Below are positions 28,291 through 57,702 of a stretch of 64,000 nt of DNA, piece by piece; positions within the stretch are counted from its first letter, which is position 1, and each line of letters begins with the position of its first letter. Source of the DNA: a virus. The notes beneath the pieces are model-generated. The model saw only the letters and a program-made list of their open reading frames with translations. It was not told where the DNA came from and ran no database searches. The translations under genes were made by a program, and so were the position numbers. Location of the stretch: the IMG/VR virus record IMGVR_UViG_3300025849_000010, positions 62,001-126,000 of that record; one strand, given 5' to 3'.

Positions 28291-29463
28291 ATGAAAATGT
28301 CAGAACTACTAGAAAGCCGCTGGTCGGACACTAAATCAGCACTGCTCGAAGGCCTAGAAGGCAATCGTAAGTCAGTAATGGCTGTTACACTTGAAAATAC
28401 TCGCAAGTATTTGTCAGAGAGTGCTACAGCAGGTGCTACCTCCGCCGGTAACGTCGCAACTCTTAACAGAGTTATTTTACCCGTCATCAGACGTGTAATG
28501 CCAACAACAATCGCAAACGAATTAGTTGGTGTTCAGCCTATGACAGGACCAGTGGGCCAAATCCACACACTAAGAGTACGCTATGCTGATTCAGCAACAG
28601 GTGTAACAGCAGGTGAAGAAGCTCTATCACCATTCAAGATTGCTCAAGGTTACTCAGGTAACGATGCAGCTGATCCAGATGGTAAAGCTAACAACACTGC
28701 AACACTTGAAGGTGCAGCAGGTAAGCGTATGTCAATTCAGATCTTGAAACAGACTGTTGAAGCAAAGTCACGCAAGCTATCAGCTCGCTGGACATTTGAA
28801 GCAGCTCAAGACGCACAGTCAATGCAAGGCATTGATGTCGAAGCTGAAATCATGGCAGCTCTTGCACAAGAGATTACAACTGAAATTGATCAGGAAATCT
28901 TAAACAGTCTACGTTCATTAGCAGGAACAGCTTCAGAGACCTTTAACCAGGCTGCTGTAAGTGGTACTGCTACTTTCGTTGGTGACGAGCATGCTGCATT
29001 AGCTGTTCTAATCAACCGTCAGGCTAACAAAATCGCACAACGCACTCGTCGTGGTGCAGGTAACTTTGCTGTTGTATCGCCATTCGCGTTAACAGTATTG
29101 CAGTCTGCAACTACTTCTGCGTTTGCACGTACTACTGAAGGTACATTTGAAGCACCAACAAACACTAAGTTCGTTGGAACATTGAACAATGCAATGAAAG
29201 TATATGTTGATACATACGCTTCTGATGCAACTGACGTTCTTGTTGGCTACAAAGGTTCTTCAGAATCTGATGCTGCTGCATTCTACTGCCCATACATCCC
29301 ATTGATGTCAAGCGGTGTTGTACTAGATCCAGATACATTCGAGCCAGTAGTTAGCTTCATGACACGTTATGGTTATGTTGAACTAAACAACACTGCATCG
29401 TCACTAGGCAATGCAGCAGACTACGTCGAGCGTGTTGCGATTTCGAACGTAAGCTTCAGCTAA
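28291..29463 (+). CDS. 23: Major capsid protein gp23
   Basis: The 390-residue product has the N-terminal RRVMPTTIANELVGVQPM and GPVGQIHTLRVRYA motifs of T4-like gp23. It also has a C-terminal VLDPDTFEPVVSFMTRYGYV region. It forms the hexamers of the head shell. It is shorter than T4 gp23 (521), as in other marine myoviruses. The N-terminal 60 residues are probably removed by gp21. An AAGGAG site precedes the start, and a strong intrinsic terminator follows 20 nt after the stop. Confidence 0.95.
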   Translation: MKMSELLESRWSDTKSALLEGLEGNRKSVMAVTLENTRKYLSESATAGATSAGNVATLNRVILPVIRRVMPTTIANELVGVQPMTGPVGQIHTLRVRYADSATGVTAGEEALSPFKIAQGYSGNDAADPDGKANNTATLEGAAGKRMSIQILKQTVEAKSRKLSARWTFEAAQDAQSMQGIDVEAEIMAALAQEITTEIDQEILNSLRSLAGTASETFNQAAVSGTATFVGDEHAALAVLINRQANKIAQRTRRGAGNFAVVSPFALTVLQSATTSAFARTTEGTFEAPTNTKFVGTLNNAMKVYVDTYASDATDVLVGYKGSSESDAAAFYCPYIPLMSSGVVLDPDTFEPVVSFMTRYGYVELNNTASSLGNAADYVERVAISNVSFS

Positions 29464-29483
29464 GTTTTATTTTATATAAAACG

Positions 29484-29512
29484 AAAATAGCACCTTCGGG
29501 TGCTATTTTTTT
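29484..29512 (+). terminator. Intrinsic terminator after gp23
   Basis: An 11-bp stem (29484-29494 with 29499-29509) closes a TTCG tetraloop and runs into a U-tract. This is a textbook factor-independent terminator ending the head operon. Confidence 0.9.
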
Positions 29513-29558
29513 GACTAAATTTTAATGATTTTACGGATGACTTTTAGGTACAAATATG

Positions 29559-29566
29559 TTTAAATA
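29559..29566 (+). promoter_or_regulatory. Possible late promoter of the PqqA-like gene
   Basis: TTTAAATA differs from the NATAAATA core in one position and lies 43 nt upstream of the start at 29610. A preceding terminator means the small gene needs its own promoter, and this is the only candidate I see. Confidence 0.35.
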
Positions 29567-29609
29567 GTAATGTAGTAAATTTTTATTAACTTAATTTATG
29601 GAGTACACT

Positions 29610-29681
29610 ATGTGGACAACACCGAAAGCAACAGAGATGAGATTCGGCTTCGAAGTAACGATGTATGTGATGAACAAGTAA
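29610..29681 (+). CDS. pqqA: PqqA-like peptide, pyrroloquinoline quinone precursor
   Basis: A 23-codon gene encodes a peptide starting MWTTPKATEMRFG and followed by FEVTMYVMNK. PqqA peptides are 23-24 residues with an N-terminal W-x-x-P and a core E-V-T-x-Y. Here Glu15 and Tyr19 sit at exactly the two positions that PqqE/PqqD join in Klebsiella PqqA. GGAG at 29600-29603 with 6-nt spacing supports ATG 29610; an in-frame ATG at 29598 would add four residues. No pqqB, C, D or E is recognisable in the window, so host enzymes or a novel partner would have to process it. It is isolated between two terminators. Confidence 0.8.
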   Translation: MWTTPKATEMRFGFEVTMYVMNK

Positions 29682-29743
29682 CAACATTACCAGAAGTAGA
29701 TATGAGCAAGCTAATAGAAACATTAGATTGTGAGTAAAACATA

Positions 29744-29767
29744 GCCCGCATATTAGCGGGCTTTTTT
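29744..29767 (+). terminator. Intrinsic terminator after the PqqA-like gene
   Basis: GCCCGC and GCGGGC form a 6-bp GC stem around ATATTA, followed by six T. Together with the gp23 terminator it isolates the small gene as a single transcript. Confidence 0.9.
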
Positions 29768-29796
29768 GTCTGCATATAATGCTTTCAGTCGATATG

Positions 29797-29804: not shown

Positions 29805-29888
29805 CTTTTGTTATAGAGATATCCTCTATTGCGAGGAATTATGCGGAAACCCGCCGCGTAGACCTAGAACGTCAAAAAGGAGAAAACA

Positions 29889-30305
29889 ATGGGACGTCCA
29901 CTTAATAAAAGATACTTCGGAGAACCAACTGCCGGAGGAAACGAAATCAAAGTACAATTTCACAATGGAACAGCTAGTGTAAACGGCTGGATCGTTAAAC
30001 AAAAAGGTTCAAAAAAATTCTTATGCTCAGACGGAACTGTCGAAGCAACATGTGTACTAGTTGACAAAGCATCAGGCGCAGTAGCAGCTGGTGAAATGAC
30101 TATTACAGTACTTGACGGTGCAACACCACGTCAGGTAACAAAGATTGCTGCACACAAAGTAACAATGGATAACGGTTTAACTATTAACTGGGACTTCACT
30201 GGAACTGGTGCAACTGTTGAAATGGAAGAAGCAGGCGATGATGCTGTTATCGACAATGTAGGCGTTGATGAAGACGACTTCGAAGGCGATGACCCAGCAC
30301 CATAA
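29889..30305 (+). CDS. Virion structural protein, MGRPLNKRYFG family
   Basis: The 138-residue product begins MGRPLNKRYFGEP, a start seen in proteins of marine T4-like phages encoded near the fibre genes. The body is beta-rich with Gly/Thr, and the last 30 residues are strongly acidic. I infer a structural role from position ahead of fibre genes and from the late promoter. No enzyme motif is visible. AAGGAG lies upstream. Confidence 0.6.
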   Translation: MGRPLNKRYFGEPTAGGNEIKVQFHNGTASVNGWIVKQKGSKKFLCSDGTVEATCVLVDKASGAVAAGEMTITVLDGATPRQVTKIAAHKVTMDNGLTINWDFTGTGATVEMEEAGDDAVIDNVGVDEDDFEGDDPAP

Positions 30306-31763: not shown

Positions 31764-34700
31764 ATGAAGTTTTTAAAACGTAATACACTTGCTTCTAAAA
31801 ATGTAAAAGACGAAGCATTAAAGATTAATAGATATGGTGAAGTAACTTCAGACAGTAAAATGTCTATTGGTAAATCTTCGCGTCCAATTGTAGAATTAGA
31901 TGTCAACGGAAGTGCAAATGTATCTGATACACTTAACGCTAACGTATTGCAAGCAACTGTATTAGAACCACAGTTCTCAAATGGCGACTTATCTATACGT
32001 GCAAGTGGTACTGGTAATGTTGTTATTAACAACTTGCTTACCGTTGGCGAAACTGCAACTACTTTTACAGGCGAAGTTGTTAACATCAACAACTTGAGAC
32101 TAGATGGCGACGGCGGTCGCACAGGTATATCAGCAATTGATTCAAATACCGGACTTTATTTAGATAGTGCCGGTACAGAAGGAATTTATGCTAACGGTGT
32201 AGACATTACTAAAACAGAAGGTAATGTAATTTGGGTTACTGCAAATGGTAGTGACGGCAATACAGGCGAAAGTATGCAAGACGCACTTGCAACTGTTAGA
32301 CAAGCTCTTATTATTGCACGTAACGGAGATACTGTTAAAATCGGAACAGGGACATTTGAAGAAATCTTTCCATTAACTGTATATCCCGGCGTGTCTATTA
32401 ACGGACAAGGAATACGCTCTACACAAATTAAACCAACTGCTGCGACACGTGATCAAAACTGTTTCCAGTTTAGAGGCGGCGCATCAGTTAAAGACTTGAC
32501 TGTTCGAGAAATGGAATATAATAGCATAGCTGATAGAGGTTATGCTTTCTGTTACGATGAGTCAACAACAGCAACATTTACTCGTGGTCCTTACATTATG
32601 AACGTAACTGTTCTTAACTTCGGATCAACAGTACGTTTAGGCATTAACTCACCGGATGATCCATACGGATATAGTGCAGGTGATGCAGGCCGTGGTATTA
32701 AAGCTGACGGCAGATACGTTAATAGAAATTCTATAGAACCAAGTTTCCTTGTAAACGAAGCTACATTCTTTTGCCCAGGACAAACTGCTATTGTACTGAC
32801 AAACGGTACACGTATGGAGTATTTAAACTCATTTGTTTACCTAGCAGACAAAGCAATACATGCAACTACAGGAACACAAGGCTGGGGCGGCACTGGGCAA
32901 ACTTATGTCATTGTTAACAATGTCACCGGCGGAAACTTTATTCCGGGCGAAACAGTACGTTACACTTCAACAGATGGTTCAACAGTAGCACAGTTCCAAA
33001 TATCAAGCTGGGACGTATCAACTCAAACATTGTCAATTACAGGACTATATACTGGACTCGACGGAGTTGACTTTACACCGCAATATGGTCAAGGTGGTTC
33101 AATTATTGGTACAGTTTCTGGTGTACAAGCAGAAAATATTGTAGAAGTTACAAAGTTTGAGTTTGGCGCAGAACTAAGAGCAATTGGCTCCGCAATGGTA
33201 TACGGTAACACAGGTGTTGTTGCTGATGGACCAGGTGTAAGTTTGCGCTTAATTGGACACAACTTTGCATACATTGGCGCAGGCAAACTAACATCTAACC
33301 GTGCTTCGGATGCAATACAAGCAAACGAAGTTGTTGAAACTAACGGTGCTAAAGTTCGCTATACATCAACTGACCATTTAGGCGACTTCCGTGTAGGCGA
33401 TCTGTTTTATGTATCACAAGAAACAGGGGAAGTGCAAATTGACGGCAGTGGGCTTAATTTTGGTGCGCTAGCAGGTGGATTAGTATTTGATGACGGCGCA
33501 GGAAACAAGAGTAGTATTACTGCTACTGAACTAACAACTGGATTTTTAACTTTCACAAGCAACGCTATTGGATCAACTGATATACTAGAAATTGATTCGT
33601 TAGATGCAATGACATTGTATGCTGCTGAAGGTGACATATCAATCAATGCAGCTGACGGAACACAGCAACTAGAAATCACTGGTGGGCCAATTATTTTACG
33701 AGGAGAAATCCAACTTGGTACTGATCCGCTATTACAAGGTGATGACTTTCCTCATGTAACTAAATTTAAATCGTTTGTTGAAAGCAACATACAGCCAGCT
33801 CCTGAATTTACAGGGATATGGGACTTAGGACAACCTGACGCAGTCTGGGCAACACTGTATGCAAGTGCAGTGCAAGTAGATGACATACGTTTAGAAGATA
33901 ATAAAATCTCAGTTAATAATACTAACTCTGATTTAGAAATTATACCAAGCGGTGCAGGTAGTGTTCTCATTGGAGGTACAACTTATCTTAAAGTACCAGT
34001 AGGTAATACACCCGAACGTGGTCCAAATGCACAAGCAGGTGCTATCCGATTCAACACACAAATTCAGCAGTTTGAAGGTTATCAGGGAACAGCATGGAGC
34101 TCACTAGGCGGCATTAAAGACATTGACGGTAATACATATATTACTCCAGAAGTATCTCCAGGGTCTAACGATGATAGGTTTGATATATACGCTGGCGGAA
34201 CATTAATCGGACAGTGGGATTTTGATGATCTTACAGTAAATTCTACTAGATTTAATAACAACAACTTTACGTTTGAAAATAATGTCATGAAAATGACAGA
34301 CATTGATACTAACTATCGTTTTGAAATAACTCCAGGTGGAACTGGTGAATTCTTCTTTAACAAAACAGTTCATATTGAAGGCGACATTGTATTGCCAGGC
34401 GGCACTATTAGTGCGCCTAATGCAACGCTATCTATTACAAGTTTAGCAGCACAAAATTTTGCAAGTGATATTATTCCTGACGTTAATATGGCGTATGACA
34501 TTGGTCATACAACTTCGATGTTTAGTGCAGCGTACATTGCAGAAGTTAACACATCAGATTTTAGATTATTTCAAAATAGAATTAGCACTATAAACACAAA
34601 TGCTGATTTTGAAATTCAAGCAGCTGGCAGCGGTCAAGTTAGAATCATCGGCGATTCGGCATTAGTAATACCAGTTGGCGGCAATTCTGTAAGACCTGCA

Positions 34701-36266
34701 GGAGAACTTGGACAAGTACGCTTTAATACTGATACTAATCAGTATGAAGGATACAACGGTATTGCATGGAGTTCATTAGGCGGCGTTCGTGATGTAGACG
34801 GCGACACTTACATAATTCCAGAAACAAGTCCAGGATCTAACGAAGACACATTGTTCTTCTATGGCGGCGGCATTGAGTTACTAAGACTTAACAATCAAGG
34901 CTTCCAAGGCGGAATATTAATTGATGGCAATTTAAGCATTGAAGGCAATGCAATTAAAACACTACAGTCAAACTCCGATATTGACATTATGCCAAACGGC
35001 ACAGGCGAAGTTAATCTTGATGCAAATACAAACGTTACTGGTGTTTTAAATGCAAGCAATTGGGTAACTACTCCTAGAGCATTTATTACAGGCGAACTAA
35101 TAAACAGAATTGCATACATTGACTTTCAAAATGAAATACAAACTAGTGACAACTTGCAGTTTGATGACACTGAATTAACAGTAAATGTTCCTACAAATAT
35201 TAACGGAAACACTACTATTGATGGCATACTAAACATCACAGCAAATATTAACACCCCTGAAGTATTTTCGGATTTCTTAACTGTTGCTGAAGATGCATAC
35301 TTCCTAAAGAATGTTTACTTTGACGAAGTTGGAGTGTTTGGTACACGAATAGCTACACTTAATACAAATGCTCCGTTGCAACTTGATGCAGCAGGCAACG
35401 GTAGAATTGTTTCAATGAAAAACATGACCGTTGAAGGTGAGTTGTTTATTGAAGGTGACTTATACGGTAGTTCAACTACTCAGAATGTCTTTAACACAAC
35501 AGCTACTACTATAAATGCATTCGGTCAAGCAACAAACATTAGTTTTGGTAATGCAGCAGGTACAACTAGATTTAATTCTAACACCGGATCGTTAGCATAT
35601 AATAGCGGCGCTGTTGTTATTGGCGGCGGATTGGGAGTCGGAGAAAATATTAATGTACTCGGAGACCTAGCTGTACAAGGCGGTGAAATCCGTACTGCAC
35701 AAGAAAACTTTGATCTTCTTAGAGATAACATACAGTTCTTAAGAGCATTTAACAGTGCAATTAGTATTGAATTTGGCGCAACAACTGGACAAACTTCCTT
35801 TGAGTCAACAGACTCTAGCACTAGTGTACTAACAGGTGGTGCAATATTTAAAGGCGGCATCGGTGTTGCTGAGAACGTTTATGTCGGCGGCATTATTAAT
35901 GCTACCAATACAGTAGATTCTACAAGTGCAGCAACTGGTGCAATAGTAACTGAAGGCGGAGTCGGTATTGGCAAAGCACTTTATGTTGCAGGCCTTACAA
36001 GACTTGAAGATCCAACTAGTTCTACATCTAGTACAACAGGAGCGTTATTAGTAACCGGCGGTGTTGGCATTGCTGAGAATATAAACGTTGCTGGCATTAT
36101 GCAAATCGAATCAACTACTGAGTCGGGAAGTACTACTTCCGGAGCATTAGTAGTAGAGGGCGGAGTTGGCGTTGGTAGAGATATCTACGTTGGACAAGAT
36201 TTAGAAGGCGCTGGAATTGATTTAAGTTACATTAATAACTTCACAATTGATGGCGGCACATTCTAA
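31764..36266 (+). CDS. Long fibre protein with pectate-lyase-like domain (1500 aa)
   Basis: Residues about 150-300 contain VTANGSDGNTGESMQDALAT and RNGDTVKIGTGTFEEIFPLT, a pattern of parallel beta-helix (pectate-lyase-fold) fibre domains. Two paralogous segments (near residues 750-830 and 970-1060) share the motif AWSSLGG followed by D-x-D-G-x-T-Y. The C-terminal part repeats a TGALVVEGGVGVGRDIYVG unit about every 35 residues (about 35810-36230). Extended trimeric fibres of marine T4-like phages show such layouts. It precedes the giant fibre gene and probably contributes to host attachment. Confidence 0.7.
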   Translation: MKFLKRNTLASKNVKDEALKINRYGEVTSDSKMSIGKSSRPIVELDVNGSANVSDTLNANVLQATVLEPQFSNGDLSIRASGTGNVVINNLLTVGETATTFTGEVVNINNLRLDGDGGRTGISAIDSNTGLYLDSAGTEGIYANGVDITKTEGNVIWVTANGSDGNTGESMQDALATVRQALIIARNGDTVKIGTGTFEEIFPLTVYPGVSINGQGIRSTQIKPTAATRDQNCFQFRGGASVKDLTVREMEYNSIADRGYAFCYDESTTATFTRGPYIMNVTVLNFGSTVRLGINSPDDPYGYSAGDAGRGIKADGRYVNRNSIEPSFLVNEATFFCPGQTAIVLTNGTRMEYLNSFVYLADKAIHATTGTQGWGGTGQTYVIVNNVTGGNFIPGETVRYTSTDGSTVAQFQISSWDVSTQTLSITGLYTGLDGVDFTPQYGQGGSIIGTVSGVQAENIVEVTKFEFGAELRAIGSAMVYGNTGVVADGPGVSLRLIGHNFAYIGAGKLTSNRASDAIQANEVVETNGAKVRYTSTDHLGDFRVGDLFYVSQETGEVQIDGSGLNFGALAGGLVFDDGAGNKSSITATELTTGFLTFTSNAIGSTDILEIDSLDAMTLYAAEGDISINAADGTQQLEITGGPIILRGEIQLGTDPLLQGDDFPHVTKFKSFVESNIQPAPEFTGIWDLGQPDAVWATLYASAVQVDDIRLEDNKISVNNTNSDLEIIPSGAGSVLIGGTTYLKVPVGNTPERGPNAQAGAIRFNTQIQQFEGYQGTAWSSLGGIKDIDGNTYITPEVSPGSNDDRFDIYAGGTLIGQWDFDDLTVNSTRFNNNNFTFENNVMKMTDIDTNYRFEITPGGTGEFFFNKTVHIEGDIVLPGGTISAPNATLSITSLAAQNFASDIIPDVNMAYDIGHTTSMFSAAYIAEVNTSDFRLFQNRISTINTNADFEIQAAGSGQVRIIGDSALVIPVGGNSVRPAGELGQVRFNTDTNQYEGYNGIAWSSLGGVRDVDGDTYIIPETSPGSNEDTLFFYGGGIELLRLNNQGFQGGILIDGNLSIEGNAIKTLQSNSDIDIMPNGTGEVNLDANTNVTGVLNASNWVTTPRAFITGELINRIAYIDFQNEIQTSDNLQFDDTELTVNVPTNINGNTTIDGILNITANINTPEVFSDFLTVAEDAYFLKNVYFDEVGVFGTRIATLNTNAPLQLDAAGNGRIVSMKNMTVEGELFIEGDLYGSSTTQNVFNTTATTINAFGQATNISFGNAAGTTRFNSNTGSLAYNSGAVVIGGGLGVGENINVLGDLAVQGGEIRTAQENFDLLRDNIQFLRAFNSAISIEFGATTGQTSFESTDSSTSVLTGGAIFKGGIGVAENVYVGGIINATNTVDSTSAATGAIVTEGGVGIGKALYVAGLTRLEDPTSSTSSTTGALLVTGGVGIAENINVAGIMQIESTTESGSTTSGALVVEGGVGVGRDIYVGQDLEGAGIDLSYINNFTIDGGTF

Positions 36267-36334: not shown

Positions 36335-39300
36335 ATGGCAAATAAAATATTACACAAACGAAATAATGTTAGCGGACAAGAGCCTCTTGCAGAGCAATTA
36401 GACCTAGGCGAAATTGCTATTAACACTGCTGATGGTAAAATGTTTATTAAACAGTCCGACGGCAGTATTAAAGATGTAACACAACAAATTGAAAAAGGTG
36501 ACACACGAGTTGTAGTAAACGACCAAGGAAATGGCGTTGTTACAATGGAAGTCGACGGCATTGAAAAATTACGTGTAGACGGTACAAAGGTTTATGTATC
36601 CGATGATTTAGAAATTGATGATCAAGGATCGATTAAATTAAAAGAACTTGGACAATTTGGTAGTAGTTCAGTTAATATTAAAGCACCGCCAGAATTGGAA
36701 GAGTCTTATGATATTATACTTCCAGATACCGATGCTCGCAAAGGACAAATTTTACAGAATCTAGGCTTTGGCCAAACTAAATGGAGTGACCCAGGCTCCT
36801 TAGGTGGTAACAGAGTTTACGTAAGTGCAGAGTACGGTGACGATACAAATGACGGACGCACAGGCGCTGTTAAAACAATTAAACGTGCTGCACAAATTGC
36901 ATCCGACGGTATTTTTACACCAGTTGTTGATCCAGGTGAAAGTGCATATGCAGCTAAAGACTTATTAGAAGTAAACAGAACTTTCTTGCAAACAGAAGTT
37001 CTAAACTTTAGTACTAAAGCATTTAACATTACTTATGATCAAGCTAAGTGTGAACGAGATGTTGGCTTAATTATTGATGCAATTGAAAATGACTTGCGCT
37101 TTGGCGGCGATGCAGCTACCTCACACGCAGGTGCAGCATATTCATTAGAAAGTTCTGCACTAGTTAAACAAGCTCAAGATGTTGCTACATCATACGGTTT
37201 ACAACGTGCTAGAGATCTTGCTAAATCAGTTGTTACTAACACGCCTATTATTGATACAACACAAGTAGCAGTAGCGCAGCAATTTGACGGTACAAAAACT
37301 GCAACAGCAAGCGAAGCAGCAACAGTTGAATCACTAGGACAAAAAGTTGTCGACTTTTACGACAACGGCGTTGGCGAAGCTCCTAACGAAACTCAAACAC
37401 AAGATGTTGGTCTACTAAATGCTGAAACATTAATTGACAACAACAAAACCTTTATTCAAAACGAAGTTATTGCTTTCTTAAATAATAAGTACAGCGGATT
37501 TAGTTTTGATGCAGCTAAATGTTCTCGAGATACTGGGTATATTGTTGACGCTGCAAATTTTGACTTACTATACAGTGGTAATGCAGAATCTCATTATGCA
37601 GGTATAACTTACTTAAATGCAACAGCATCTTTAGTACGTTCGGATCAAAAACAAGAAACACTTGCAGGCATTGACTATGCTAGATCTCTAGCAGAAAAAG
37701 TTGTATTAGGCCAGCAAGTTGATTACTTGTATCAAACAACAGTGGCACAAAACACTGAATTAACTCCTGGTACGCAAACTGAAGCAACAACAGTCTTTAA
37801 TAACATTAGCAAAGTTTATTCAATCCTAAACAACGGTATTGGTACTGCTAACGGAGTAGTAACGACTGATGCAGGCAAGTTAAATTCAGAAACACTTATT
37901 GATCAAAACCAAGACTTTATTAAAGAAGAAGTTATTGGATACTTAACTACAACTTATCCAGGCTTTTCATACGATCAGAACAAGTGTCGTAGAGATGTAG
38001 GATATATTTTAGATGCTATTAGTTACGACTTAACACATGGCGGTAACAATGAAAGTATTCAAGCAGCACTAGCGTATTACCAGTGGACTGCAAAAGATGC
38101 AGTTAACTTGCAATTGGCAGAAACAAGAGCAGGAATTACATATGCAATTGATCTTGCTAAACTTGTTATTGTTAACCAAGATCCTGCTACTAGTTATCAA
38201 GGTATATTTGCACAGTTTAAAGACGCAGGCAATCCAGGCGATGCAACTTCACAAACTATACTTACTGGATTAGGCAGCTTAATTGACGATATCATCACAG
38301 ATGGCGATAGTACTACTATTGGCCTAGACATTGATCCTAATAACTCTGTACCAAGTGCAGTTCAAGATACAGTAAATGCTAATGCAATTCTTGCAGCAAA
38401 CAAAGAATTTATTCAAGCTGAAGTTGTAGCGTTTATTGAAGAAAACTTTGGCAACTTTAATTACGATCCAGTTGCATGTGAAAGAGATGTTGGCTTAATT
38501 GTTGATGCAGTTAAGTTTGATATTGAACACGGTGGCGATGCTGAAAGTATTTTTGCAGGGATAAGTTATTACAACAATGTAACAACTGGCACTGGGGAAA
38601 TCACAGGCGATGCTATTGAAGTTCTAAGAAAGCAACTACAGCCTACATTAGACGCTGTAGAATATGCTAGAGATTTGCTTGCAAACGTTGTATTACAAAA
38701 TGCAGTATCAAATCTTTACCAAAGTGGAACAACGCAAACATTCGACGGCACAAATCCAAGCACAACAAGTGTAGCACAAACAGTTTTTAATCGTGCTAAT
38801 ACTATATTAACTATTCTTAAGAATGGGTTAGGTACAACTAACAGCTTTACAAAAACTACCGGAATTGGTGCGTTAAACACTGAAGCATTGTTGCAAGCAA
38901 ACACTGCATTTTTGCAAGAAGAAGTACTTGGGTATATTAATAATCAATATCCTGGACTAACATATGACCAAGCTTCATGTCGCAGAGACGTTGAATTAAT
39001 TGTTGATGCTATTGCGTATGACTTAACACACGGCGGTAATACAAATAGTATTGCAGCAGGTACAGCATACTATAGACAAGCAGCAGCACTTGTAGTCACT
39101 GGACAAAGTACAGAAACTTTAGCAGGCCTAGTGCATCTAAAAGAACTTGCACAAAAAGTTGTTCGTAACGTAACAGTTGACGTTACATATAGTGCAACAC
39201 CTCAAGTATTTGACGGTGCAAACCCAGGTGATGTAACAAGTGCAAACACAGTAGGAACACTAGCTGATATTGTTATTGATATTGTTGACGATGGACTAAG

Positions 39301-42300
39301 TCCTTATATTAACATTACAGCAAACGGCGCATTAACAACTGATCAAGACATACTTGATGCAGGCGCATTGATTGCTTCGAACAAACTATTCATACAAAAA
39401 GAAGTAGTTGCTTATGTTGACGGAAGTTGGATTAACTTCTCAAGTAACTATAATCAAACAACTTGCAGTCGCGATGTTGGTTTAATTCTAGATGCAATTA
39501 ACTTTGACTTAACATGGGGCGGAACATCTAATGCTGTTGCTGCTGGTATTGCATACTTTAAACAAAGCAGTCAGCTAACACTACAGCGTCAGTTAGTACA
39601 AACTATTGACGGTATCATGCATGCTATTAGATTAGCACAGCAGGTAGTTGAAAACTATCCAGTAGTAAGTTTCCAAAATACTGCTGCACAAGTAACTGAC
39701 AATTTAAATCCAGGTAGCGCAGAAGCAATTACTAAGATTGCAGAACTTGGCGCACTAATCGAAGACATTGTTATTGACGGAGCAAGTGCAACTGCAGGTG
39801 TTACTATCTTTGGAAACGGAATTGTTCCAAATTCAAACATAGCTGTACAAAACGCAGCAGATTTGATTGCACTAAACAGATCGTTTATTCAAGCTGAAGT
39901 AGTAAGTTACATTAATACTTACTTTACAAACTTCACTTATGACACTGATTTCTGTTACAGAGATGTTGGCTTGTTTATTGATGCAATACAATATGATTTG
40001 ATCTTTGGTGGTAACGAACGTGCTATTGAAGCAGGTAAATCATACTATATTGGTAATACTATTGTTATTCCGGGACAAGAATTCCAAACAGTTCTTGCTA
40101 ATAGATACTTCCAGTCATTAGTAGACAACATATTACAAAACATTGTTAACAAGAAACTTTATCAAAATGTTACTGGTCAAATTACTGACCCAACTAAGAT
40201 AGTTGACGGCACAACACTAGGAATTGTTGAAGCGGAATTTAATACTATTGTTGATATTATTGAAAATGGTCCTACATCGCCTAACATTCCTACAGAAGTT
40301 GAAGGCGCATTTAATATCAGTTACACAACTATTATGGTGTCAACTGGTGAATATAAAGAAGACAACCCAGTTATTATTCCAGACTATGTATCTATTGTTG
40401 GCGATAACTTGCGTACAACTATTATTCGTCCGCTAAATGCTAACCAAGATATTTTCCGTATTCGTAACGGTGCTTATTTGTTAGGTGTTACATTTAAAGA
40501 TGGACTAGATGCATTTAACGTACCTAGCTTTACAGGTAGATATTGTACTGCGTTTGACGATCCGTTTGACACAGGTGTTGATCGTACTGGTTATATAGGA
40601 CTAAGAGATCGTCCGCTTATTACACAGTCGCCATACATACAAAACGTATCTATTATTTCGTTCTTAGGTCTAAGCGGTTGTTTAGTAGACGGTTCAAAAG
40701 TTATTACACCGAACGTACCGCGTTTTGCTATCGAAGCTGAAAATCCAGTATTTGGTGAAACACCTGAACAAGGTAAGTCAATGGTTGCTAACGCATATAC
40801 TATGCTATCATTTGGTGGTATTGGCTGGCGCTTAACTAACGATGCATACGCACAGATCGTTTCGTGTTTCCAAATTTTCCTTGGAAATGGTTGCTGGTGT
40901 CAGTCAGGTGCTTACCTTTCTGTTACTAACTCTGCTACTAACTTTGGTCTATACGCACTACGTTCGTCAGGTTACTCTGCAAACAGCTTTGTGTTTGACC
41001 GTGGTGTTATTGCAGAAGTCGGCGCCCAAGCATCGCAGCAAAAACTTATCACAGTTGGTACTAAGCGTACTCCAGTTAACCAATTCGTTATTAGATTGTA
41101 CGACGATGACGAGTACAATAACTTAGCAAACGATATTACAAACAGCTTTAAAACTATTCCAAATATTGTTTACTTTAATGCAGGCGAACTTGGAGAATTA
41201 TATGGCGATGCTGCAAACTACGAAGTTGTAGCAGTAGGGTCAACTACATTTACAGTACAAATAGGATCTGGCAAAAACTTAGGATCTTGGGTCGAAGGCG
41301 GCACAGTTGACATAAACGGTGCATTTAATCCAGCAGCAGTATTGTCAGCTTCGTATAATAATACAAACGGTGCTTTAGAAATTGAAGTAACTACTTTACC
41401 GAATATTGGTGACATAGTAACACTTACTACATTGACTTTTGACGGAACTAACTACCCTGTAAACGAAGAAGGTTCACTAAGTCTTGAAGACAATACTATT
41501 ACTATTCCGGGACACGGCTTAGTAACAGGAGATGCATTAACATATCGCAGAAACGGTAATATTGAAATTAACGGCTTTGCAGACCAAGGTTTGTATTATG
41601 TCGAGGTTCTAACTGATGATATTATTAGACTATATCAAGATGACTCAAGAGGATTCGTTGCAGATATTATTGACGTATCAACAGGACAACATTATTTCGA
41701 AACACAGACTGAAGAATTCTTTATCGATGATATCATTCTTGATGCAGATAGCAATAAACTAACACACAACAAGTATCAGGTGTTAACACTTGCACCAGGA
41801 ACATATAACTTTGAACCAGGTGACACTATTGAAGCAACAACTGGGGTTTATAGAAACAAGGCGTTTGTTTATACCTACGAAGCTGCAACAAGACAGCTAA
41901 CTGTATCAGTTGAGAAAGCAGACAATTCAGGTTCACTAACAAGAATCTTCTTTGATGCAACTTCGATTATTGATAGAGATAGTAGTGCTATTCCGCAAAG
42001 TAATATACCTGTAACAGGATTTACTTCTAGAACAGACTTATTTACAGCAGAGTTTACAATTGATCCGACTATTGTAGGTGGCGTACTAACTAATACAGGT
42101 GCGTTAAAAGGAACATTTATTCGCTTGCATAGACCTTCAATTGTTAACAGTTCGTCACACACTTGGGAATATGCAGGTTCAGGTACAGACTATAACGCTC
42201 TACCACAGAACGGCGGTATTACAAGAGAAGAATTTGAACAGTTTAGTGACTTACCAGGACGAGTTTACTCTTCAGGTACTAACGAACTTGGTGACTTTAA

Positions 42301-45300
42301 AGTTGGTGACTTCATTGTTGCAGAAAACAGAACTGGTAACATTACATTTAAAAACACAGTTACAGTTGGTGAACTTTCAGCACTGAAACTTGCAGTTTCG
42401 GATGTTGTTATTGAAGCAATTTCAACTGATCCAGGACTAGGCGACAACGAACCAGGTGGTGCTACAGATACACGTTTGATTACGCAGAATGCAGCACGTA
42501 GCTTCTTAGCAAACAGACTAGGTGACTTCATTGACAAGAACGTATCTACTAACTCAGTTAGTGGTGCTGTTCCGCAGATGAACGCACAAGGCTTGTTAAA
42601 CTCGGATATTATTCCAGCAACACGTAACTTTAGTTTGTTCACAACAGATAAGAAGTTTGGTAGATTTAACCTAACTGATGATATTCCTGCGCAGGAACCG
42701 CTACAAGGCGATATTGCACAAGAACGTTACTCACGTACATTCTTTACATTAAGTGCGCCAATAGCATTGAATGAAGACGATGTTATTATTGAATTAAACA
42801 CTGGAGCAACTGCTATTGTTGATGAAGACAACGGCGGCGCGGCTACTGTTTATCTTGCTAACATCGAAGGAACGTTTAGTAATAATATTAGCGGAAACGT
42901 ACTTAATGTAAGAGGAAGTAACACTACTACATATATTACTAATACTGGTTCAAGTGAAGTACGAGACATTCAGTACACAATGGTACAAGACTCGTCGAGT
43001 CAGTTCCTAAGATACTTACCATCAGGCGCAGCTTTTGTTAATGGACAAACCATTACAGCAGCTAATTCAAAGACACAAGGTGTAATTACCGGTCAAGTTG
43101 AAGGTGTTGCATTGGCACTTGATCTTGGAAATATTAGTACAGGTAATGGATATGTTCCATCAACTGGTTCACAAACATATAAGGGTGTTGTACTTTCAAA
43201 TGTTAGCGGAACAGGCACAGGTGCTATTGCAGACATTAGTGTAACCAACGGCAAAGTTACAAACGTTGACCTTACAAGAGGCGGCAGCGGATATGCTGTT
43301 GGTAATGCATTAACTGCAACAGTTGACCAACTAGGCGGACAGAACACACAAGACTTCCAGGTTAGCATACTTGGAGTTGATAATAGAGTGTTTGTTGAGT
43401 TGCTAGCAGGAAAGTTTGTTGCTACAACAAGTTCAAATGATTATACTGAAGACGGCAACGCAGTAGTAACTACTGTACCGTTAGGAAATACAACACTTAC
43501 TGCATTTAATGCTGACACTATTGGCAACGGCGGTAATGTTGATTATCCAACTTCACGAATAACAATTAATTCGCATATATTTGATAACGGAGATGTAGTT
43601 AACTATGCTAGTTCACCAAATCCAGCAATTGGCGGATTTATACAAGGTGAAAGTTACTTTGTTAAAGTTGTTGATGCAAACACTATTGAACTTTACAACA
43701 GATACGATTTAAATGCTGCAAATAAAGTAATATTTACTTCCAGTTCTACAGGCACACATGCGTTTATTATTAACTATGTTGACACACGTAAAGATCGCAT
43801 TTATGCACAGGACCACGGATTTACTAACGGACAAGCATTCCGTTTTGTAGGAGCTAATCCTCCAACTGGCATGGCAAGCGGCGGATACTACTATGCTGGT
43901 ACAGTAAGTCAGAATACATTCTCGGTACACGAATTCCAGCAAGACGCAGAAAACAGTGTTAATGGAGTAACTCAAGGTGCTATTAACTTTATTCAAACTG
44001 GTAGCGGTAGTGCAGACTTTATTCACCAAAATATTACAATTTACGGAGAAGTTAACACATCAGGTAATGTAGAAACTAACTGGGCACTAACTGGTAGTGC
44101 AAACGTAGACGCATCAAACATTGTGTCGGGTGTTATTAGTACATCACGTTTGGCAGCAGTTGGTACAGCGAATAGTGATACTTACTTAAAAGGTGACAGC
44201 AGTTGGGATTATGCAACACGTACAGTTCGTACAGCACTTAATTCACCGCTTAACATAACTGGTAACTTCTATACAAGCGGCGGTCAAAACTTCTACTTCA
44301 AGAACACACAGTTTGATATTGACAGAACTGATGGCACTTTAGGTAACCAAAGTTTCACTAACCTTGGTGTTGCAGCATTTAGTAAAGCACAGTTTAACGT
44401 AAACTCAGGTGAAGTTGAACTAAAAGCAGGAGTACTAGATGCAGGAACACTAGACGGACTAGATAGTCAATACTTCCTAGATCCAGGAAACTTACTAAAT
44501 CCAGTTCCTGTATCACGTGGCGGTACACAGATAGATCAATATATTGCCGGGGATATGATTTATGCAACATCTCCAACAACACTAAACAGACTGCCAATTG
44601 GTAGTCAAGGTGCTGTTATGGTTGTTGATGAATTAGGGAACCCAGCATGGTCAAATGACGTTGCTCCGTTTGTTGAAGATACTAATAACTTCGGTGTTTC
44701 AAGACCACTAGAAATACGACATGACGTAACAAATACTCCAGCAGTTGGCATTGGTGTTGGTATGCAGTTCCAGGTTGAAACTGCTAACAATAACAGAGAA
44801 GTTGGCGGCACTATTGACGCTGTTGCATCAGACGTAACATTTGGTTCAGAAGACTTTAGCTTTAAGTTTAACTTAATGGCAGCAGGCTTCTTAGCAGAGC
44901 GTATGGTACTAGACTCATTAGGTAACTTAGCTATTGACGGTGACTTAAATGTTGACGGTGGTGATATTAAAACTACTAAAACAAGTGCAACTGTATACGA
45001 TACTACAGTTACATCACTAAGCATTGGTAGAGCTGCAACTTCAGTTACTATTGGCGCAGATAAAACTGGTGAACTAAGAGTACGAAATGCAACTCTAGTA
45101 GTTGGCGGTGACTCAATAGAAACACAGCCAGTTGATGCAAAAATTAAAGCACCAAATTCACTAGGTACTAACAAGCAAGGTCCAGATTTAACTATTCAAG
45201 GCGGCGCAAGTACAGGTAGTGGCGTAGCAGGATCAGTATTCATTGATACTGGTGCTAGTGGATCAAGCGGCAGTACTTCAAATACACAAGTAAATCGTGT

Positions 45301-48097
45301 AGAAATTAGCGGATCAGACAATCATACACATAACTTAGACTTTGGTAGAAGTTCACAAGGTACGCAGCAAATTGGTAAGGTTGGTGTTAAAGGTCCTATT
45401 ACTGGACAGTTTAACGTTAACGGTTCGGTATTAGAACTAACGCCAGGCGCCGGTACAGGTTCGGGACAAGGTGCTAAAGTTAACATTTACGGTTCAAATA
45501 GTATCGGTTCTGGTAGTGGCATACAAAGTAGTGAACTAATTGCAAGTTTCTCAGGAGACGCTATTAGACTAAACAAAGATGTTATTACACAAGCAACTAG
45601 CTTAGGCACAAATCAATCAACATTTGATCTTGTTAATGATACTGCAACAACACTTAATATTGGTGGCGCTGCAACAGCTATTGACATCGGTGCATCAAGT
45701 GGTTACTTGCACGTTAACTCCGCTGACCAAGCAGTTAGTACTACAACAGGTGCGCTACGTGTAGACGGAGGCGGTAGTTTTGGTAAGAACTTGTATGTTG
45801 GTGGTAACTTAGTTGCTGCTGAACTTACACTAACTGGTGCTATTGATGGTAACAGTTACAATGTAGGCGGTATTGAAGTAATTGACACTAACAGACGCTT
45901 TATTTCAAGCGGTGGCACAACTGGTGAACTTTCAAAAGTACACGGCATTAGCTTTGACTGGGACGGCAACTACGGCGCAGTCGGCGGTTATGTAAACCAT
46001 GGTATTAGTTCACGTAACGAAACTTGGGGAGCTAACGATAGTTTAAGTATTAACTCGTACAACAATGTTAACGTAAGACTTGATACTAACTCTAACAATG
46101 CTGCTGCAAGTACATTCTTCCGCATTAACAATGACGTAAGTCAAACTAATGGTAACATTGTACTAAGTGCAAGAGGCGACGGCAAGGTTGGTATTAACAA
46201 AGATCCAAGCGGTACTTACAACTTAGATGTTGGCGGTAGCTTTAATGCTACAACTGGTTACATTAACGGTGGTGCAATTTGGACTGACGCTAATGACGGT
46301 GATGGCTCAGGCTTAAACGCAGACTTGCTAGACGGCTTACATGCATCCAGCTTCCTACGTGTTGATACTGGTGCTGCATTTAGTGGTGGTGTATTTAAGA
46401 TTAGTGCTCCTGCAACAACAATTCAAAACACTGGCGAAGTTAACACATTACAGTTATATCAAGGCAACGGTGCTAATAGTTACGATGCATTTATGACATT
46501 CCATATTGGCGGTGACTATGCTGTACACTTTGGTTTAGATGGAAGTACAAACGATCTAGCATACGGCGGTTGGTCAGCTGGTGCAGTTGCACATAAAGTA
46601 TGGCACGCTGGTAATGATGGTAGTGGCAGTGGACTTGATGCAGACTTGTTAGATGGACAAGATAGTGCATTCTTCCGTAACGCAAGTAATATTAATGCTG
46701 GTACTTTCCCAGATAGATTTAGTAGTAGCGAACGTTACAACATTGGATTTATTGACGGTTACGGCGGCGATAGCTACGACAAACTGCGTGTATGGAATAG
46801 TGGTTCGTACTCAATAGGTATGCACAGTGGCCAAACAATGGGTTGGCTAAACGACTATGCTATGACATTCACAATGAATAACGATAGTGATCGTGGCTTT
46901 AAATGGCGTCATGAAAGTGATGGTGTTGCTGATGGTGCTATGGCACTTACAACAGATGGTCGTTTAACAGTTAAGCAGTTCATCTCAGTAGGTAATCAAA
47001 CTACACGTTACCTAAGAGAACCAACAGGTAACTACGGTTCGATTCAGATTAGCGGTAGTGGATTTGGTAACTGGGAAGGCTTTAGCATTGACGGTCGTGC
47101 AGTATTCATGCATGACGGTGGCACTGCAACTGGTATCTTCAACGATGTAGATAACGAATGGTTGTTCTACGGTGTACACAACGCACAAACTGAAATGATG
47201 CATAATGGTAGTTGGAAAGTTCAAACACGTTCCAATGGTGCAAACATTGCAGGCGAGCTATATGTTGATAACTGGGTACGCATTGAAAGCAATTCAGGTA
47301 TTTACTGGGAAGGTGGCAACTATGCTGGATGGCACATTTATCCACAAGCAACTAACAGAATCCACATGCGTTCAGCTAACAGCGGAAGTTGTGAAGTTTC
47401 TCTTGCTAACAGTGCAAACACTATCTATGGTAGATTATATGCAGATGATGCATCACAAGGCTTCCTAAACGAAGATGGCAACTGGGCACTACGTAGCTAC
47501 AACAACGACGGTGTTTCACCTGGTTGGAGATTCTACGAAAACGGTAACGAAAGCTGGACAGGCAACCCAGGTAATGACGTTGGTAAGATTGAATATCACG
47601 CTAACAGATTCTACATTGCATCAGGTGCTAACTCCGATCGTGTTGTACAGTTTAGACGTGATGGAACAGATGTTTCATACGTTGATAACAGTGGTGTTTA
47701 CCAAGGTACTGCTGCAAGTGCTAACTGGGCTGACTTGGCAGAGAAATACTTAGCTGACGAAGTTTACGCACACGGTACTGTACTTGCTATTGGTGGCGAT
47801 GCTGAAGTTACATTGTTCAAACCAGGCATGAAACTAGCAGGCGTTGTTTCAACACAGCCGGGCTTGATGATGAACCAAACAGACGATAACAGAGATGATC
47901 CGATGTGGCCGTTCGTTGCACTTAAAGGTCGTGTACCAGTTATGATTAATGGTTCAGCTAAGAAAGGCCAGTATATCATTGCAGATCAAGACGGTAAAGG
48001 TCGTGCTGTAGACGAACTAAGTACTATAGCAGAATACACTTTATTAATTGGTACTGCATTAGAAGATGGTACAGATGTAGTTGAAGTGAAGGTATAA
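36335..48097 (+). CDS. Giant tail fibre protein (3920 aa)
   Basis: The order of parts is: an N-terminal fibre-stem start (IAINTADGKMFIKQSDGS), seven tandem repeats of about 155-170 residues (residues about 205-1330), and a beta-helix part near 1340-1570 (IMVSTGEYKEDNPVIIPDYV). A long beta-rich shaft follows, then LLDG-type repeats (ADLLDGLHASSF near 3325, ADLLDGQDSAFF near 3430), and a C-terminal domain near 3780-3920 with WADLAEKYLADEVYAHG and GRVPVMINGSAKKG. The last part resembles Peptidase_G2-type terminal chaperone domains of fibres. It should be a long tail fibre or side fibre that meets the receptor. It is followed after 3 nt by the small Cys-His-Xaa-Ser peptides. Confidence 0.8.
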   Translation: MANKILHKRNNVSGQEPLAEQLDLGEIAINTADGKMFIKQSDGSIKDVTQQIEKGDTRVVVNDQGNGVVTMEVDGIEKLRVDGTKVYVSDDLEIDDQGSIKLKELGQFGSSSVNIKAPPELEESYDIILPDTDARKGQILQNLGFGQTKWSDPGSLGGNRVYVSAEYGDDTNDGRTGAVKTIKRAAQIASDGIFTPVVDPGESAYAAKDLLEVNRTFLQTEVLNFSTKAFNITYDQAKCERDVGLIIDAIENDLRFGGDAATSHAGAAYSLESSALVKQAQDVATSYGLQRARDLAKSVVTNTPIIDTTQVAVAQQFDGTKTATASEAATVESLGQKVVDFYDNGVGEAPNETQTQDVGLLNAETLIDNNKTFIQNEVIAFLNNKYSGFSFDAAKCSRDTGYIVDAANFDLLYSGNAESHYAGITYLNATASLVRSDQKQETLAGIDYARSLAEKVVLGQQVDYLYQTTVAQNTELTPGTQTEATTVFNNISKVYSILNNGIGTANGVVTTDAGKLNSETLIDQNQDFIKEEVIGYLTTTYPGFSYDQNKCRRDVGYILDAISYDLTHGGNNESIQAALAYYQWTAKDAVNLQLAETRAGITYAIDLAKLVIVNQDPATSYQGIFAQFKDAGNPGDATSQTILTGLGSLIDDIITDGDSTTIGLDIDPNNSVPSAVQDTVNANAILAANKEFIQAEVVAFIEENFGNFNYDPVACERDVGLIVDAVKFDIEHGGDAESIFAGISYYNNVTTGTGEITGDAIEVLRKQLQPTLDAVEYARDLLANVVLQNAVSNLYQSGTTQTFDGTNPSTTSVAQTVFNRANTILTILKNGLGTTNSFTKTTGIGALNTEALLQANTAFLQEEVLGYINNQYPGLTYDQASCRRDVELIVDAIAYDLTHGGNTNSIAAGTAYYRQAAALVVTGQSTETLAGLVHLKELAQKVVRNVTVDVTYSATPQVFDGANPGDVTSANTVGTLADIVIDIVDDGLSPYINITANGALTTDQDILDAGALIASNKLFIQKEVVAYVDGSWINFSSNYNQTTCSRDVGLILDAINFDLTWGGTSNAVAAGIAYFKQSSQLTLQRQLVQTIDGIMHAIRLAQQVVENYPVVSFQNTAAQVTDNLNPGSAEAITKIAELGALIEDIVIDGASATAGVTIFGNGIVPNSNIAVQNAADLIALNRSFIQAEVVSYINTYFTNFTYDTDFCYRDVGLFIDAIQYDLIFGGNERAIEAGKSYYIGNTIVIPGQEFQTVLANRYFQSLVDNILQNIVNKKLYQNVTGQITDPTKIVDGTTLGIVEAEFNTIVDIIENGPTSPNIPTEVEGAFNISYTTIMVSTGEYKEDNPVIIPDYVSIVGDNLRTTIIRPLNANQDIFRIRNGAYLLGVTFKDGLDAFNVPSFTGRYCTAFDDPFDTGVDRTGYIGLRDRPLITQSPYIQNVSIISFLGLSGCLVDGSKVITPNVPRFAIEAENPVFGETPEQGKSMVANAYTMLSFGGIGWRLTNDAYAQIVSCFQIFLGNGCWCQSGAYLSVTNSATNFGLYALRSSGYSANSFVFDRGVIAEVGAQASQQKLITVGTKRTPVNQFVIRLYDDDEYNNLANDITNSFKTIPNIVYFNAGELGELYGDAANYEVVAVGSTTFTVQIGSGKNLGSWVEGGTVDINGAFNPAAVLSASYNNTNGALEIEVTTLPNIGDIVTLTTLTFDGTNYPVNEEGSLSLEDNTITIPGHGLVTGDALTYRRNGNIEINGFADQGLYYVEVLTDDIIRLYQDDSRGFVADIIDVSTGQHYFETQTEEFFIDDIILDADSNKLTHNKYQVLTLAPGTYNFEPGDTIEATTGVYRNKAFVYTYEAATRQLTVSVEKADNSGSLTRIFFDATSIIDRDSSAIPQSNIPVTGFTSRTDLFTAEFTIDPTIVGGVLTNTGALKGTFIRLHRPSIVNSSSHTWEYAGSGTDYNALPQNGGITREEFEQFSDLPGRVYSSGTNELGDFKVGDFIVAENRTGNITFKNTVTVGELSALKLAVSDVVIEAISTDPGLGDNEPGGATDTRLITQNAARSFLANRLGDFIDKNVSTNSVSGAVPQMNAQGLLNSDIIPATRNFSLFTTDKKFGRFNLTDDIPAQEPLQGDIAQERYSRTFFTLSAPIALNEDDVIIELNTGATAIVDEDNGGAATVYLANIEGTFSNNISGNVLNVRGSNTTTYITNTGSSEVRDIQYTMVQDSSSQFLRYLPSGAAFVNGQTITAANSKTQGVITGQVEGVALALDLGNISTGNGYVPSTGSQTYKGVVLSNVSGTGTGAIADISVTNGKVTNVDLTRGGSGYAVGNALTATVDQLGGQNTQDFQVSILGVDNRVFVELLAGKFVATTSSNDYTEDGNAVVTTVPLGNTTLTAFNADTIGNGGNVDYPTSRITINSHIFDNGDVVNYASSPNPAIGGFIQGESYFVKVVDANTIELYNRYDLNAANKVIFTSSSTGTHAFIINYVDTRKDRIYAQDHGFTNGQAFRFVGANPPTGMASGGYYYAGTVSQNTFSVHEFQQDAENSVNGVTQGAINFIQTGSGSADFIHQNITIYGEVNTSGNVETNWALTGSANVDASNIVSGVISTSRLAAVGTANSDTYLKGDSSWDYATRTVRTALNSPLNITGNFYTSGGQNFYFKNTQFDIDRTDGTLGNQSFTNLGVAAFSKAQFNVNSGEVELKAGVLDAGTLDGLDSQYFLDPGNLLNPVPVSRGGTQIDQYIAGDMIYATSPTTLNRLPIGSQGAVMVVDELGNPAWSNDVAPFVEDTNNFGVSRPLEIRHDVTNTPAVGIGVGMQFQVETANNNREVGGTIDAVASDVTFGSEDFSFKFNLMAAGFLAERMVLDSLGNLAIDGDLNVDGGDIKTTKTSATVYDTTVTSLSIGRAATSVTIGADKTGELRVRNATLVVGGDSIETQPVDAKIKAPNSLGTNKQGPDLTIQGGASTGSGVAGSVFIDTGASGSSGSTSNTQVNRVEISGSDNHTHNLDFGRSSQGTQQIGKVGVKGPITGQFNVNGSVLELTPGAGTGSGQGAKVNIYGSNSIGSGSGIQSSELIASFSGDAIRLNKDVITQATSLGTNQSTFDLVNDTATTLNIGGAATAIDIGASSGYLHVNSADQAVSTTTGALRVDGGGSFGKNLYVGGNLVAAELTLTGAIDGNSYNVGGIEVIDTNRRFISSGGTTGELSKVHGISFDWDGNYGAVGGYVNHGISSRNETWGANDSLSINSYNNVNVRLDTNSNNAAASTFFRINNDVSQTNGNIVLSARGDGKVGINKDPSGTYNLDVGGSFNATTGYINGGAIWTDANDGDGSGLNADLLDGLHASSFLRVDTGAAFSGGVFKISAPATTIQNTGEVNTLQLYQGNGANSYDAFMTFHIGGDYAVHFGLDGSTNDLAYGGWSAGAVAHKVWHAGNDGSGSGLDADLLDGQDSAFFRNASNINAGTFPDRFSSSERYNIGFIDGYGGDSYDKLRVWNSGSYSIGMHSGQTMGWLNDYAMTFTMNNDSDRGFKWRHESDGVADGAMALTTDGRLTVKQFISVGNQTTRYLREPTGNYGSIQISGSGFGNWEGFSIDGRAVFMHDGGTATGIFNDVDNEWLFYGVHNAQTEMMHNGSWKVQTRSNGANIAGELYVDNWVRIESNSGIYWEGGNYAGWHIYPQATNRIHMRSANSGSCEVSLANSANTIYGRLYADDASQGFLNEDGNWALRSYNNDGVSPGWRFYENGNESWTGNPGNDVGKIEYHANRFYIASGANSDRVVQFRRDGTDVSYVDNSGVYQGTAASANWADLAEKYLADEVYAHGTVLAIGGDAEVTLFKPGMKLAGVVSTQPGLMMNQTDDNRDDPMWPFVALKGRVPVMINGSAKKGQYIIADQDGKGRAVDELSTIAEYTLLIGTALEDGTDVVEVKV
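36955..40300 (+). repeat. Seven tandem repeats inside the giant fibre gene
   Basis: Each unit carries a Leu/Ile-x-x-N-x-x-F-(I/L)-(Q/K)-x-E-V motif, then C-x-R-D-V-G with one Cys, then D-A-x-x-(Y/F)-D-L and a GG-(N/D) turn. Starts are near residues 209, 365, 519, 684, 850, 1011 and 1176. The units are diverged at DNA level, so the expansion is old. Confidence 0.75.
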
Positions 48098-57398: not shown

Positions 57399-57702
57399 CA
57401 TTGTAAGTTTCTTTATCTTCGCTATAGGGTTTAAAGTACGGATCATTGCCGGCTAATAAATCTTTATCATCTAGTAGCTCGTAGAAATCGTATTTAAAAT
57501 CTAAACTTATCCAATAAGCATAACAGATTGCTACGAAATAACTTTTAGCAGGATACACCCATTCGTCTACACGTTCGTAGAAATGTTTCACTGCCCAAAT
57601 AACACTGTCTTCTTCTGTACGAATGTCGACTTTGTTTAAGTCGTCAGTAAATTCTGTTGCAGTACTATTAAATAGTTGTAATCTAGTCTTCCAGTTCAGC
57701 AT
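57283..57702 (-). CDS. Small unknown protein of the convergent operon
   Basis: The 139-residue product has aromatic, acidic, helical character (WVYPAKSYFVAICYAYWISL) with no recognised motif. Its start overlaps the end of radical-SAM protein 7 by 20 nt, which supports it as a real gene of that operon. Its last 116 nt overlap the 3' end of protein 6 tail to tail. The overlapped part, GMVPDVRSYYEEEMMFDQYP, reads like ordinary protein. Confidence 0.55.
   Translation of the reverse strand: MLNWKTRLQLFNSTATEFTDDLNKVDIRTEEDSVIWAVKHFYERVDEWVYPAKSYFVAICYAYWISLDFKYDFYELLDDKDLLAGNDPYFKPYSEDKETYNAILDHISLPDPSSQTGMVPDVRSYYEEEMMFDQYPLHN

Follow-up and report, generated by a model that had tools for sequence, protein, structure and literature searches.

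A 23-residue peptide encoded at 29610-29681 (+) of the window (64,000 nucleotides, bases 62001-126000 of a 159,618-base virus record) is, judged by its sequence, a true member of the PqqA family. We consider it likely that this phage PqqA is a supply of consumed precursor that keeps host PQQ and methanol dehydrogenase going until lysis.

The pqqA gene and its operator-like site

The 72-base ORF encodes MWTTPKATEMRFGFEVTMYVMNK, and the initial annotation, which reported a 23-residue product with W2, P5, Glu15 and Tyr19, is borne out by the sequence. Its label ‘PqqA-like’ can be strengthened: the peptide matches the Pfam PqqA model (PF08042) at 40.9 bits (curated cut-off 21.1, E = 1.9e-10) and the NCBIfam equivalog TIGR02107 at 39.9 bits (cut-off 20, E = 2.6e-10), both about 20 bits above the curated cut-offs. 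This gene is the sole PqqA match in the complete virus record, and the PqqA model had no matches in 14 control genomes. A PDB search with the peptide also gave no matches. The peptide is like other PqqA proteins in its length and in W2, P5, G13, E15, T17 and Y19; it is unlike them in being phage-borne and encoded away from pqqBCDE and, in a subset of phages, in having a second reading frame through the gene.

The gene stands alone between strong terminators, as had been proposed. Upstream is the gene for the T4-type major capsid protein gp23 (28291-29463, +; Pfam Gp23 338.8 bits, E = 7e-101; PHROG 138), which is followed by its intrinsic terminator at 29483-29510 (+) with a 12-bp stem, a UUCG loop and a T run (-15.9 kcal/mol, z -5.8); a pattern scan lists this hairpin on the minus strand, since the T run is taken up into the stem. 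The terminator of pqqA itself (29743-29769, +) consists of AGCCCGC-6-GCGGGCT followed by TTTTTT, and its hairpin (29743-29762) has a folding energy of -14.1 kcal/mol (z -3.0). A Shine-Dalgarno sequence, GGAG, is present at 29600-29603 (+), 6 nt 5' of the ATG. No RNA family exceeded its cut-off in an Rfam search of the pqqA stretch, and RNA structure in the pqqA leader is no stronger than in shuffled sequences. A possible, weak phage late promoter, TTTAAATA at 29559-29566 (+), was identified by consensus match only (7 of 8 positions of the T4 late consensus TATAAATA); a T4-late-like motif was also seen by eye 5' of pqqA in six T4-like relatives (L077, L185, L369, L376, L414 and L454). The motif is a weak hint that pqqA may be expressed late.

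Downstream of the pqqA terminator, a freshwater-2 RNA (Rfam RF02980, cis-regulatory; 52.1 bits, gathering score 49.9) at 29821-29891 (+) extends to the point where the next gene (29889-30305, unknown protein) begins. Beyond it, a 1500-aa ORF (31764-36266), the end of which contains repeated segments, is followed by a single ORF of 3920 aa (36335-48097, +) that is probably structural.

An operator-like site, TTAATGATTTTACGGAT, was located by matrix scan at 29522-29538 (+) and is akin to the palindrome of the host PQQ operon, CTMATGAWWWTCMTKAG. An expectation-maximisation motif search over viral and host pqqA upstream regions recovered a motif in 94 of 101 non-redundant viral regions and a similar, separate motif in 121 of 125 host regions. 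The host form is the palindrome, ~120 nt 5' of the pqqA start; the viral form, TTMATGRTTTTMNKDAK, lies ~90 nt 5' of the start and is often followed by TATAAT. With at most one mismatch allowed, each of five Methylophilaceae genomes has one to four copies of the palindrome, and 11 of these 12 sites are directly 5' of pqqA or pqqB; a reversed control pattern has 3 sites. In host genomes pqqBC lie beside the same palindrome. When trained without the window phage and the isolates, the viral matrix placed its best site genome-wide at 29521 (21.4 bits, next 15.4), a score reached in 0 of 1000 shuffles. The host matrix selects the same place within the pqqA leader (10.7 bits, 3 of 1000 shuffles), which is not its first-ranked site genome-wide. 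The window operator is degenerate in its right half, with 13 of 17 positions agreeing with a host form.

The site is also present in P19250A, MEP301, Melnitz, Venkman and a podovirus, and the matrix scan found no clear operator upstream of pqqA in MEP401 and MEP402. We infer that a host regulator may bind the operator-like site. A MarR-family-like gene (L337, 494-979, minus strand), recognized by eye 3' of a Methylobacillus pqqA that has the palindrome, is a possible candidate for such a regulator. Orphan methylotroph pqqA genes (e.g., pqqA3-5 of the strain with five pqqA copies studied in PMC9851590) are likewise stand-alone units away from pqqBCDE, and Methylophilaceae pqqA copies likewise have the palindrome upstream; the phage unit differs in that its site is ~30 nt closer to the start and its synonymous positions are strongly diverged. 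An operator-like site in front of a phage pqqA appears to be new within the open-access literature.

Predicted host and proposed role of the peptide

The pattern MWxxPxxxxxRFGFEVTMY, run against 84,980 genomes of bacteria and archaea, provided a sample, rather than an enumeration, of host PqqA peptides. The matches listed are mostly from methylotrophs, namely Methylophaga and the Methylophilaceae (Methylotenera, Methylophilus, Methylobacillus, Methylopumilus and OM43). The commonest Methylophilaceae PqqA among the matches listed, MWTTPAATEMRFGFEVTMYVMNK, is identical to the window peptide at 22 of 23 residues, while the closest host pqqA DNA among them agrees at 61 of 72 nt (11 differences, 8 synonymous and 3 other). 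Because the window PqqA is one residue off the commonest peptide of the family, the phage almost certainly infects a methanol-oxidising member of the Methylophilaceae, an assignment based on the peptide and the operator-like site. Methanol and PQQ are both supplied in the culture medium of methylophage hosts (PMC9004378).

The operator-like site, pqqA and its terminator would constitute a self-contained expression unit. PqqA is a consumed substrate, used at one molecule per PQQ, and the enzymes are reused; therefore a phage need supply only PqqA. Once host expression is ended by the phage, PqqA would be exhausted before PqqB-E, and the host PqqB, C, D and E could then convert phage PqqA to PQQ. 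PqqA alone would be the cheapest way to keep the PQQ-dependent methanol dehydrogenase in cofactor, and the maintained cofactor would secure the energy supply until lysis. On this reading the phage peptide would be produced during infection, would be processed by host PqqD/E and would raise PQQ. PqqE cross-links Glu and Tyr within PqqA (PMC9851590, citing Barr 2016). The suggestion that the phage could boost PQQ for host dehydrogenases is the best supported of the roles put forward, with the near-identical host peptide, the PQQ-operon-like site in most copies and purifying selection all pointing to it.

Overexpressed substrate mimics can inhibit, and the peptide might act as a decoy that occupies host PqqD/PqqE and stops PQQ synthesis. 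We regard this as improbable, since the reactive Glu and Tyr, which one would expect a decoy to have lost, are both kept within a sequence like that of the host substrate, and since an operator-like site in most phage copies argues for co-regulation with the host pqq genes.

A role in precursor supply has a parallel in cyanophage psbA, where the phage supplies a short-lived component of the host energy system and the host provides the rest. The analogy is partial: PqqA would be a consumed precursor peptide, whereas psbA encodes a damaged photosystem subunit. Also comparable to the window phage is VP_266, a Lake Baikal T4-like phage fragment described in 2020 (PMC7678222), for which the passages available give the same metabolic reading; it is likewise from a T4-like Methylophilaceae phage with pqqA, interpreted as boosting methanol oxidation. 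VP_266 also encodes methanol dehydrogenase, according to the same passages, whereas the window phage does not: neither a PQQ_2 protein nor a PQQ-dehydrogenase or methanol dehydrogenase was found in its genome. A stand-alone pqqA, pqqA in cultured methylophages, an operator and a second frame are absent from those passages on VP_266 (PMC7678222).

An overlapping reading frame with a conserved tail

Relatives of the window pqqA share a short coding stretch 3' of the pqqA stop that ends in a conserved tail. In the window this tail (MSKLIETLDCE*, 29702-29737, +), supported by a blind scan and by pN/pS, closes a 41-aa ORF, MDNTESNRDEIRLRSNDVCDEQVTTLPEVDMSKLIETLDCE, which occupies 29612-29737 (+) in the -1 (+2) frame, begins at a GTG inside ATGTGG and is open through pqqA. 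The blind scan of IMG/VR for MxRLLETQDCE returned 17 matches, all of them 5-11 nt 3' of a pqqA stop. Among 242 viral pqqA loci the tail is present in 42, and in each of these (42/42) it is read in the -1 frame relative to pqqA, with linkers of varying length (36, 37, 38, 39, 41 or 47 codons in total from the GTG equivalent to 29612). Its consensus, [RK]-L-[LI]-[ED]-[TS]-x-D-C-[EV], has so far been found only in this context; none of the host pqqA loci examined has the tail, and the -1 frame product has no matches among Pfam, NCBIfam and PHROG families. The tail adjoins gp23 in some phages, is found elsewhere in G000-like phages, and is present in contigs without G000-like neighbours; it therefore travels with pqqA.

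Of 12 distinct tail-bearing genes, 11 keep the -1 frame free of stops across pqqA, compared with 1 of 104 tail-less genes. These sets were not chosen by pqqA codons; the genes are related, and so the counts are not independent. Codon resampling predicts 0.77 open frames among the 12 (maximum 4 in 2000 runs); a second batch of tail loci, collected with a pattern that required TTC and AAC, was excluded from this test. One locus (L168) has the tail but is interrupted by a stop at codon 14. The codon choices that keep the second frame free of stops are held (ACA at 3 and 8, TTC at 14, AAC at 22; neither T3 nor T8 is ACT), while nearby synonymous sites vary and F12 in tail-bearing genes is mostly TTT. 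For the tail, pN/pS is 0.25 in the -1 frame vs. 0.81 and 1.00 in the other two frames. In the tail-bearing subset the second frame is open beyond chance and carries a signature of protein-level selection.

Two other origins of the tail were considered. An independent downstream micro-ORF was rejected: the codon 5' of the tail that would serve as its ATG reads M, I, V or another residue depending on the locus, whereas the frame of the tail with respect to pqqA is constant. A late -1 frameshift is less likely, as stop-avoiding codons extend back to codon 3; the pqqA ends in tail-bearing genes vary (AAG TAA, CGC TAG, AGA TAA), and no common slippery site was seen among them. In the simplest reading translation would begin at the GTG that lies two bases into pqqA, because several members have no other in-frame upstream start codon. 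A subset of phage pqqA thus looks like a dual-coding gene, whose cassette probably yields a further small phage protein, the -1 frame product. With somewhat less confidence than we attach to precursor supply, we favor a mobile methylophage cassette in which pqqA lies behind a site derived from the host PQQ operon and which, in a subset, is dual-coding via the GTG in ATGTGG, yielding a second protein of 36-47 aa. The overlapping frame appears to be new within the open-access literature.

The stop-free -1 frame and the conserved tail would also fit a -1 frame protein that is the main selected product, with pqqA secondary. This is highly improbable: the tail is lacking from 200 of the 242 collected viral pqqA genes and from 115 of the 120 listed by the unbiased scan. 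In these tail-less genes stops usually close the -1 frame, and still every one of them conserves the PqqA peptide.

Other PQQ genes and the distribution of pqqA among phages

Usually pqqA is accompanied by pqqBCDE, although this is not essential for orphan copies. A check for pqqB-E in the rest of the genome, with the PqqD and PqqE models, gave no PqqD match in the 159.6-kb virus record and three weak PqqE matches, the best with 31.5 bits vs. a cut-off of 381, and so the usual companions were not found by these models. Thirteen other PqqA phages were also surveyed, and 12 of them have no PQQ_2 protein. The lack of PqqD, of PqqE over cut-off and of PQQ_2 in the window phage, and of PQQ_2 in these 12, is in line with a supply of PqqA only. 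With a PQQ_2 protein in only 1 of the 13, a phage methanol dehydrogenase was rejected as a general partner; that one phage (L136/G019, a 72,356-base virus contig) has PqqA and a PQQ_2 protein in a 628-aa open frame (cf. the Baikal methanol dehydrogenase phage).

Beside T4 gp15, the region 57683-62074 (-) of the window encodes three radical-SAM proteins, a cupin, a 2OG-Fe(II) oxygenase and a NUDIX protein. The radical-SAM genes (57683-60655, -) are generic, and none is a PqqE over cut-off. Together with the three weak PqqE-model matches elsewhere, they are what could favor the earlier proposal that the peptide is a substrate for the phage's own radical-SAM enzymes, which would turn it into a different modified peptide. 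We give this proposal very little credence: there is no PqqD, the best PqqE match is far below its cut-off, the nearest radical-SAM gene in the window is 28 kb from pqqA, none of the 13 other PqqA phages has a radical-SAM gene, and the peptide is nearly identical to that of the host, as expected if host PqqD/E must read it.

By tblastn, PqqA is encoded in nine Methylophilales/Methylophilaceae phage isolates (MEP301, P19250A, Venkman, MEP401, MEP402 and four Melnitz phages) and also in a podovirus genome from a metagenome; MEP431-434 were not among the hits in the collection searched. Another two matches, to ‘Acinetobacter phage’ MD-2021a, were set aside, being apparently bacterial contigs with a pqqBCDE operon and no phage gene. 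In public annotation pqqA is absent from most isolates and placed on the opposite strand in Melnitz and the podovirus (records with the gene missing or on the wrong strand: KX815270.1, MT375522.1, MW452941.1, OP830906.1, OP830907.1 and MZ577095-8.1). In IMG/VR there are at least 120 stretches with pqqA, and the first 80 genes among the matches listed all encode exactly 23 aa. Carriers include T4-like phages (the window phage; Melnitz, Kyanoviridae), Zobellviridae (MEP401/402) and phages of the Venkman/P19250A type, with pqqA at unrelated places in their genomes. The text searched of the Melnitz, Venkman and MEP papers does not mention pqqA, and passages of a 2026 reservoir study list viral pqqA among phosphorus-cycle genes (PMC13188868). 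Beyond this listing and the description of VP_266, the breadth of pqqA in methylophages appears to be new within the open-access literature.

The window is from a true phage genome rather than contamination: gp23 adjoins pqqA, two contigs (L369 and L370) are syntenic with the window (gp23 92-95%), and cultured phage genomes carry pqqA. A survey of gp23-downstream regions, suggested in the initial annotation, found pqqA adjoining gp23 in only 2 of 80 gp23 relatives and lacking there in the rest, and a position behind gp23 was rejected as a rule; 12 of 13 large gp23-relative contigs have no pqqA anywhere in the available sequence. One gp23 relative (L077, 6277, minus strand) has pqqA at the same place behind gp23 in the orientation opposite to that of the window. 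Because pqqA is rare among gp23 relatives, it seems to follow the host rather than the capsid lineage.

Among 115 distinct viral pqqA genes, mean pS is 0.59 and mean pN 0.11 (pN/pS 0.18); at the level of codon comparison, the PqqA peptide is under purifying selection in many phages. The invariance of E15, V16, T17 and Y19 is partly built in because these residues are part of the pattern that collected most of the viral genes. Loss of Glu15/Tyr19 in close relatives, which had been named as evidence against the PqqA reading, was not observed: the ten phage records that tblastn recovered over ≥80% of the peptide retain both residues, and so do all 17 loci collected by a pattern that placed no constraint on PqqA. 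The likeness of the phage DNA to host pqqA (61 of 72 nt to the closest copy among the matches listed) could point to an integration site, or to host DNA picked up by chance, with a functionless peptide, which we judge the least probable reading, given that 8 of 11 differences are synonymous and the copy is too diverged for an attachment site, that pN/pS is 0.18, and that T4-like, Zobellviridae and siphovirus-type phages carry pqqA at unrelated places.

Gene callers overlook metabolic genes of 23 residues, as seen from the methylophage pqqA genes that are unannotated or assigned to the wrong strand. If the dual-coding reading is true, a 23-residue cofactor precursor gene would be among the shortest known to be nearly fully overlapped by another, and a cofactor gene would conceal a small phage protein that is new, encoded in the overlapping frame. 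If precursor supply is the role of the peptide, phages of abundant aquatic methanol oxidisers would have repeatedly taken a single gene for a consumable peptide, and probably the control site along with it; the cofactor would be kept supplied during infection, and cultured phage-host pairs (Venkman, Melnitz, MEP301, MEP401, P19250A) would make it testable what limits PQQ synthesis.
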